In this document: piece after piece, positions 15,881 to 55,636 of the stretch | Position numbering within the stretch: position 1 is the first letter of the stretch | Layout: each line of letters opens with the position of its first letter | Origin: a bacterium | GTDB lineage: Bacteria; Sysuimicrobiota; Sysuimicrobiia; Sysuimicrobiales; Segetimicrobiaceae | Length of the DNA stretch: 57,357 bases | Assembly (NCBI GenBank): GCA_035691305.1 | Contig: DASSJF010000014.1 | Span: 1 to 57,357 of the forward strand | Reading direction: 5' to 3' | Notes under the pieces: generated by a model | Seen by the model: only the letters and a program-made list of their open reading frames with translations | Told to the model about the DNA's origin: nothing | The model's database searches: none | Position numbers and translations under genes: made by a program

Positions 15881-15886
15881 TATAAT
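15881..15886 (+). promoter_or_regulatory. TATAAT -10 element six bases before an ATG (leaderless start)
   Basis: Perfect TATAAT followed by GCCGCC and then ATG at 15893. With the usual distance from a -10 box to the transcript start, the mRNA would begin at or within a base of the ATG. No TTGACA-like -35 is present; an inverted repeat fills that region. Confidence 0.65.
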
Positions 15887-15892
15887 GCCGCC

Positions 15893-15934
15893 ATGCGTGA
15901 CCGCGGCGCCTCGAGGGCGACCGTCTCCGGATGA
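15893..15934 (+). CDS. Leaderless 13-codon upstream ORF coupled to the GT39 gene
   Basis: Reads MRDRGASRATVSG and stops with the TGA at 15932-15934, which overlaps the ATG at 15931 of the downstream membrane glycosyltransferase (ATGA). The start lies six bases after a perfect TATAAT, so the first codon of the mRNA would be this ATG. The likely role is to load ribosomes and pass them to the overlapping gene, perhaps with sensing through its codons (three Arg, two Ala, two Ser). A very similar arrangement is at 54573. Confidence 0.5.
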   Translation: MRDRGASRATVSG

Positions 15935-54376: not shown

Positions 54377-54560
54377 GAAAACCCGACCGCCCCCCGGCGC
54401 GTTCTCTTAATGAGAGGATGAACGCGTCGGTTGCCTGCCGCGGAGCCTGATCACCGGGTCTAAACGCCGCGTCTCGCTGATTCCTTCCGGCGCCCGCACG
54501 TCGGGCGGAGACTCGATCCGCGTGCGGCCTCGAACCGATGGCGGTGCTAAGTCCCGGTGC

Positions 54561-54566
54561 TATAAT
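54561..54566 (+). promoter_or_regulatory. TATAAT -10 element six bases before a GTG (leaderless upstream ORF)
   Basis: Perfect TATAAT with TGC before it (extended -10), then GGCGCG and GTG at 54573. No TTGACA is seen 15-19 bases upstream. Same spacing as at 15881, 23643 and 31392. Confidence 0.65.
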
Positions 54567-54572
54567 GGCGCG

Positions 54573-54620
54573 GTGGTTCGGGAGGCCCGAGACCGACAAA
54601 ATGAGGTGTGCAGCGCATGA
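54573..54620 (+). CDS. Leaderless 15-codon upstream ORF coupled to the ferredoxin-NADP reductase
   Basis: The GTG at 54573 opens MVREARDRQNEVCSA, and the TGA at 54618-54620 overlaps the ATG at 54617 (ATGA). A GAGGTG inside the short frame lies 9 bases before that ATG and may serve as its ribosome site. The start is six bases after a perfect TATAAT. A single Cys is near the end. It likely acts as a translational coupler or attenuator. Not proven to be made. Confidence 0.5.
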   Translation: MVREARDRQNEVCSA

Positions 54621-55636
54621 GTCCCGAGGTTGATCTCTTCGACGTCACGATCATCGGCGGCGGCCCGGTCGGCCTGTACGGCGCCTACTACGCAGGATTT
54701 CGAACCCTCCGCACCAAGATCGTCGAGAGCCTCGACGCCCTCGGCGGTCAGGTCACCGCGCTGTATCCCGAGAAGCCGATCTACGACGTCGCCGGGTTTC
54801 CGAAGATCGTCGGCCGGGAGCTGGTCGACAACCTCGTCGAGCAGGCAAGCCAGTACAATCCGACCGTCTGCGCCGGCGAGACCGTGGACAAGCTCGAACG
54901 CGCGGCCGACAACACCCTGCGCCTCACGACGAACAAAGCCACGCACGCGAGCAAGGTGCTGTTGATCACGGCCGGGATCGGCGCGTTCCACCCGAAGACG
55001 TTCAAGAATCCGCTGATCGACTCGTTCGAGGGCCGGGGGCTGTACTACTTCGTGAAGAGCTTCAAGGAGTTCGCCGGAAAGCGTGTCCTCATCACCGGCG
55101 GGGGCGACTCCGCGGTGGACTGGGCGAACGGGCTCGTCGGCGTCGCCCGGTCGGTGACCCTGATTCACCGCCGCGACGGGTTCCGGGCGCACGAAGATTC
55201 CGTGCAGAAACTGCTCCACTCACCGGTGAACGTCAAGCTCTTCTACGAGCTGCGCCGGCTCGAGGGCAAGGACAAGATCGAGCGCGCCGTCATCTTCCAG
55301 AACAAGACGAACGCGGAGGAGACGATCGAGGTCGACGCGGTCATCGCGTCCCTCGGGTTCCTCAGCACGCTCGGACCGATCGCCGACTGGGGCCTCGAGC
55401 TCGAGCGCGACAGTATCCGTGTGAACAGCAAGATGGAGACGAACCTTGCGGGCGTCTACGCGGCGGGCGACATCGTCGTCTATCCCGGCAAGGTCAAGCT
55501 GATCGCGACGGGCTTCGGCGAGGCGGCCACCGCCGTCAACAACTGCGCGCAGTACATCAACCCGAAGGCGAGCGTCTTCCCGGGCCACAGCAGCAGCCAG
55601 GACGTCCACAAGCAGAAGGCCGGCGCGACCGCGTAA
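54617..55636 (+). CDS. Ferredoxin-NADP reductase, thioredoxin-reductase type (YumC-like)
   Basis: ATG at 54617 gives 339 residues. FAD-binding DVTIIGGGPVGLYGAYYAGF at the start, NADP-binding VLITGGGDSAVDWANGL in the middle and YAAGDIVVYPGKVKLIATGF at the end. The CxxC of thioredoxin reductase is absent, as expected for type-2 ferredoxin-NADP reductase. It transfers electrons between reduced ferredoxin and NADP, linking the 2-oxoacid:ferredoxin oxidoreductase at 39738-42366 to NADPH. ATG is preferred to the GTG at 54608. It is driven from the leaderless promoter through an overlapping 15-codon ORF. Confidence 0.92.
   Translation: MSPEVDLFDVTIIGGGPVGLYGAYYAGFRTLRTKIVESLDALGGQVTALYPEKPIYDVAGFPKIVGRELVDNLVEQASQYNPTVCAGETVDKLERAADNTLRLTTNKATHASKVLLITAGIGAFHPKTFKNPLIDSFEGRGLYYFVKSFKEFAGKRVLITGGGDSAVDWANGLVGVARSVTLIHRRDGFRAHEDSVQKLLHSPVNVKLFYELRRLEGKDKIERAVIFQNKTNAEETIEVDAVIASLGFLSTLGPIADWGLELERDSIRVNSKMETNLAGVYAAGDIVVYPGKVKLIATGFGEAATAVNNCAQYINPKASVFPGHSSSQDVHKQKAGATA

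Follow-up and report, generated by a model that had tools for sequence, protein, structure and literature searches.

The reductase leader

The stretch of DNA analysed here (the window, 57,357 nt), from an uncultured bacterium of soil, carries a gene for a thioredoxin-reductase-like flavoprotein of 339 amino acids, called ferredoxin-NADP reductase in the initial annotation, whose top NCBIfam match, TRX_reduct, stays below the cut-off (149 bits vs. 343). A short frame following a promoter element overlaps the start of this gene. Its parts are given below, where G000 is the genome of this window and G001 and G002 are its two congeners, the three genomes of the genus being compared throughout.

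54556..54576, forward strand: 21-base block GGTGCTATAATGGCGCGGTGG, spanning the -10, the probable start point and the GTG; identical in G000, G001 and G002
54558..54566, forward strand: extended -10 promoter element TGC-TATAAT (TGC at 54558-54560, TATAAT at 54561-54566)
54567-54572, forward strand: six-base spacer GGCGCG between TATAAT and GTG
54573..54620, forward strand: candidate leaderless small ORF, with GTG at 54573-54575, 15 sense codons (MVREARDRQNEVCSA) and stop TGA at 54618-54620
54603..54608, forward strand: reductase Shine-Dalgarno GAGGTG, within the small ORF and 8 nt 5' of the ATG; GAGG core kept in the genus
54617..54620, forward strand: ATGA stop/start overlap (reductase ATG at 54617-54619); kept in G001, unused in G002
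54617..55636, forward strand: thioredoxin-reductase-like flavoprotein gene

The succession of TATAAT, six bases, GTG, 15 codons and a TGA overlapping the reductase ATG is exactly the one originally reported, and its coordinates were confirmed. Absent from that description were the TGC extending the -10 and the Shine-Dalgarno sequence of the reductase; since the gene carries its own, it has no need of the small ORF. With a third-position GC of 0.60, vs. 0.92 in the reductase gene, the small frame does not resemble a gene, although 15 codons are little data for such a comparison; its single Cys codon, TGC, stands at position 13 of 15. On its own strand, the reductase leader showed no -35 element, terminator, Rfam match or unusual fold (z about +0.5 to +0.6, not significant).

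Leaderless initiation at a spacing of six bases

The premise that a GTG in such a position can act as a leaderless start proved sound at the level of both genome and family. Among the 103 readable TATAAT sites of the genome, an RTG follows at a spacing of six bases 16 times vs. about 3.1 times at each other spacing (Poisson P about 2e-7), and a pattern search over the whole genome returned 16 occurrences of TATAAT-N6-RTG vs. 1 of the reversed pattern. GTG is as frequent as ATG among these starts, 11 of which open frames longer than 60 codons, most of them recognisable main genes (UvrB-like, TyrS-like, ABC transporter). The excess at spacing 6 thus arises because most such RTGs start leaderless main genes, and TATAAT-N6-RTG genuinely marks leaderless starts here. 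Spacing 6 also prevails over spacing 9 in family f1 of Ca. Sysuimicrobiota (143 vs. 82), and no spacing-6 excess was present elsewhere in the phylum (119 vs. 141). There is therefore good support for leaderless initiation as a general trait of the genome and the family. The distance from the -10 to GTG 54573, six bases, coincides with the leaderless peak of the genome and, as 11 of the 16 RTGs so placed start long frames, leaderless translation from this GTG is plausible.

Leaderless genes with a -10 adjoining the start codon have been described in Deinococcus-Thermus and Actinobacteria (PMC3160421, PMC12340547, PMC3898074). The -10 is placed there, as here, so that start codon and transcript start would coincide, but the RTG considered here opens a short frame and not the main gene.

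Four of the 16 genomic sites lie on the contig of the window (15881, 23643, 31397 on the minus strand, and 54561), which makes up 1.6% of the genome (binomial P about 1e-4). Several TATAAT-N6-RTG sites also occur on contig C9 of G001 and contig C97 of G002, which carry orthologous genes.

Conservation of the leader and its possible role

A close reductase orthologue with its 5' side was available in 25 genomes of the phylum and 23 leaders could be placed, L121 and L130 being excluded as unplaced by the start motif. All 23 have a -10, either TATAAT or a near match to it, at 26 to 103 nt from the reductase ATG, and an RTG at spacing 6 occurs in 3/23, namely the three genomes of this genus, which constitute one lineage; the mini-ORF has its GTG start in this genus alone. 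Its three members share an identical GGTGCTATAATGGCGCGGTGG and identical ten bases 3' of the -10, GTG included; the aligned sequence from the block to the Shine-Dalgarno varies, with large indels, and is followed by GAGG with ATGAG. The small ORF of G000 (15 codons) contains a Cys, that of G001 (MAQEVRRA, 8 codons) contains none and ends on the same overlapping stop, and in G002 there is no small frame, the GTG reading in frame through 19 codons (MVWGPGRRELRPDRRGVQG) into the reductase. The presumed leaderless start is kept in three congeners and the coupled linkage in two of them, and neither was found outside the genus among the 23 leaders. Relatives devoid of such a frame, which the initial annotation had considered decisive against its proposal, are hence found outside the genus and, as one of three members, inside it. 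With an overlapping stop in G000 and G001 and an in-frame reading in G002, a ribosome starting at the GTG would reach the reductase in all three genomes. Peptide and Cys differ among the congeners, and thus no selection on them is visible; selection may act on where the GTG lies.

The reading that we favour, at a probability of roughly 0.5, is that the reductase mRNA begins on the GTG and that the small ORF modestly raises the supply of ribosomes to the gene, whatever peptide it encodes; it would be a naturally occurring leaderless bicistronic design and not a sensor. The conserved extended -10 would set the transcription start at or next to 54573, and in this genus the mRNA would open with GUG. 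A 70S ribosome would initiate at the 5'-terminal RTG without a Shine-Dalgarno sequence, translate the 15 codons as far as the UGA that overlaps the reductase AUG, and there either initiate anew or hold the site accessible; this supply would act beside ordinary initiation at GAGGTG. We infer start point, small-frame translation and coupling alike, as all of these steps lie beyond the DNA. The reading is favoured by the overlapping stop, kept in G000 and G001 despite a length of 15 vs. 8 codons, and by the similar stop/start overlaps at accD in the three congeners and at nusB. Against it stand a Shine-Dalgarno sequence that may suffice by itself, a GTG absent outside the genus, a codon use that is not gene-like and coupling that is not enriched in the short spacing-6 frames of relatives. 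The effect on the reductase alone is expected to be small. If the frame is translated, the class of coupled leaderless small ORFs known in mycobacteria would reach into an uncultured phylum on which little work exists. Its GTG being coupled in two of the congeners and in frame in the third, the genus would then provide a natural comparison for the evolution of leaderless starts.

The strongest alternative is that the leader is an ordinary one and the triplet has no consequence. The reductase, with a leader of 44 nt, would then be translated only from its Shine-Dalgarno, at 54603-54608; the GTG would be fortuitous, either untranslated or translated to no effect. We regard this as a real possibility, short of an even chance. 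It agrees with a -10 that is always kept across the phylum, at distances from the ATG as variable as reported above, next to an RTG confined to one genus, as well as with the codon use of the frame; moreover, for the majority of novel short frames in M. tuberculosis no selection is apparent (PMC9094748). An RTG falls at any given spacing after about 3% of the TATAAT sites of the genome, one frame in three is suitable and about 69% stay open, which gives a joint chance of roughly 0.7% per gene. Over about 100 TATAAT sites an occasional chance case is then unsurprising, and in the reductase family the chance that at least one of about 21 lineages has an RTG at spacing 6 is about 0.48. A fortuitous triplet is, however, harder to reconcile with the identity of the ten bases past the -10 in three congeners whose remaining leader is not identical, and with a spacing that is exactly the leaderless one of the genome.

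The suggestion that the single Cys could make the frame a cysteine-sensing leader of the mycobacterial type did not withstand comparison with the congeners. The leaderless architecture and the one TGC codon fit such an attenuator, but with the Cys missing in G001 and no small frame at all in G002, cysteine sensing is unsupported. The leader also has no run of Cys codons, significant fold, terminator or Rfam match, and the gene that follows encodes a thioredoxin-reductase-like flavoprotein and not a cysteine-pathway enzyme. An unconserved Cys in an unconserved peptide, together with the lack of structure, led us to reject this candidate, which we hold to be extremely improbable. As far as the polycysteine leaderless uORF attenuators of mycobacteria are described in the sources consulted (Canestrari et al., 2020, via PMC9031893 and PMC13236596), the resemblance consists in a leaderless short ORF containing cysteine 5' of a gene. 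In that same account the Cys codons are contiguous, compared with one unconserved Cys here; the reductase frame encodes no conserved Cys-rich peptide, does not precede a cysteine or sulfur assimilation gene and belongs to a leader devoid of a significant fold or terminator.

The nearest known kind is instead the mycobacterial "coupled" leaderless small ORF, of which the reductase case may be regarded as a candidate member in a new phylum. Such ORFs are over-represented in mycobacteria, their peptides are divergent, and ribosome delivery to the downstream start has been proposed for them (Shell et al., 2015, PMC4633059). The likeness to this class comprises an RTG at the presumed mRNA 5' end, a frame within 5-50 codons, a TGA overlapping the downstream start (RTGA, here ATGA) and a linkage that persists in a relative although the peptide does not. 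Unlike that class, the present case belongs to a different phylum (Ca. Sysuimicrobiota), its linkage is kept in one of two congeners only, the downstream gene has its own Shine-Dalgarno, and genome-wide enrichment is not proven. Termination-reinitiation at ATGA overlaps has been measured for overlapping gene pairs (PMC6728339), which share the 4-nt overlap and a Shine-Dalgarno inside the upstream frame, but both partners are full genes there, whereas the upstream frame here has 15 codons. An engineered leaderless fore-cistron raises downstream expression in Corynebacterium glutamicum (PMC10367133); in this bicistronic design, too, the fore-cistron is leaderless, contains a Shine-Dalgarno and ends with a stop that overlaps the following start, but the construct is synthetic, with ATG fore-cistrons of about 60 nt and a TAATG overlap.

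Small frames at other genes and shifting starts

Leaderless small frames exist at other genes as well, and some of them are conserved. Those compared with the reductase frame are the following.

15881..15934, forward strand: TATAAT, N6, ATG 15893, 13 codons and TGA overlapping ATG 15931
accD leader: L252 from base 901 (G000 C82:63143-), reverse strand; also L262 and L298
nusB leader: L260:100-235 (G000 contig C87 from 21137); also L273, L292, L332, L306, L348, L354, L303 and L367

The case at 15893, adduced in the initial annotation as an independent instance, does have the architecture described, TATAAT-N6-ATG with an ATGA overlap, over 13 codons. Its small frame has no counterpart in G001 or G002, the two congeners compared, the gene at 15931 having a leaderless start in frame in G001 and no such promoter in G002. 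Ahead of accD, a leaderless GTG small ORF of 11, 12 and 9 codons is found in the three congeners, its stop always overlapping the accD start (GTGCTGA); the remaining readable leaders of the family have no RTG at spacing 6. Several orthologues of accD and of the 15931 gene were unplaced by the start motif.

The nusB leader is the conserved example, of more interest than the reductase case. Its leaderless GTG small ORF, of 18-49 codons and in the arrangement TATAATAC(N4)GTG, is kept in 9/9 family genomes examined. A strong hairpin (GACCACC...GGTGGTC) lies at about +65, with a T-rich tail and directly 5' of nusB, and no Rfam match was obtained for this leader. The arrangement resembles a transcription attenuator through which an antitermination factor would be controlled. 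A short leaderless frame also precedes a YceD/DUF177-like gene, with a conserved beginning, MFVCPA..AGH or MCPGA.PGHAA (L214, L272, L300, L305, L347), and consists for the most part of a GC-rich hairpin, e.g., GTGCCCGGCGAGATCCGCCGGGCAC.

That leaderless small ORFs constitute a general coupling device in this clade, as the two cases of the window had suggested, is weakly supported and unproven. We counted short frames (3-60 codons) starting at spacing 6 and ending with RTGA on a long coding-like frame, the other spacings serving as controls. In the own genome 3/5 short spacing-6 frames were RTGA-coupled vs. 10/87 at other spacings (Fisher P 0.02), two of the three being the very cases that had prompted the question. 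In the relatives the proportions were 10/41 vs. 8/51 (P 0.22), and five of the ten coupled frames belong to nusB. Coupling in the relatives is no commoner than at control starts, and the frame at 15893, being unconserved, lends the proposal no further weight.

Indels seem to switch leaderless starts in and out of frame. The leaderless RTG of an ABC transporter gene is out of frame in G011 and in frame in the others, and that of a methyltransferase-like gene is out of frame in G003 and in frame in G000. Pairs of relatives that have the RTG in frame in one, and out of frame and ending near an internal start in the other, are L304/L275, L331/L255 and 15893/L269. The reductase GTG could accordingly be the former leaderless start of an N-terminally extended reductase, as read in G002 through 19 codons into the gene; indels in G000 and G001 would have shifted its frame, and a small ORF ending on an internal start would be what remains. 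The same switch at the ABC transporter gene, the methyltransferase-like gene and the 15893 gene, in frame in G001, lends this relic some credit; nevertheless, the 19-residue extension of G002 has no counterpart in other orthologues, G002 keeps the Shine-Dalgarno at the shorter start, so that the extension may itself be due to chance, and three genomes do not fix the direction of change. We deem it quite unlikely.

A broader proposal would join the ribosome feed favoured for the reductase to this toggling. In family f1, that of this organism and probably Ca. Segetimicrobiaceae, the transcript start would be held on an RTG at many genes, indels would switch that RTG between in-frame start and small ORF, and the small ORFs, exemplified by those of the reductase, accD and nusB, would serve beyond Actinobacteria as a widespread device for coupling or as an evolutionary buffer; at present this appears doubtful. 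If the reductase frame is translated, automated gene prediction in this family would probably overlook such genes or assign them a wrong start. An apparent leaderless start was also seen at a prfB-like (release factor 2-like) gene, with an early TGA after 24 codons (L238, L281), as expected from the known programmed frameshift of prfB.
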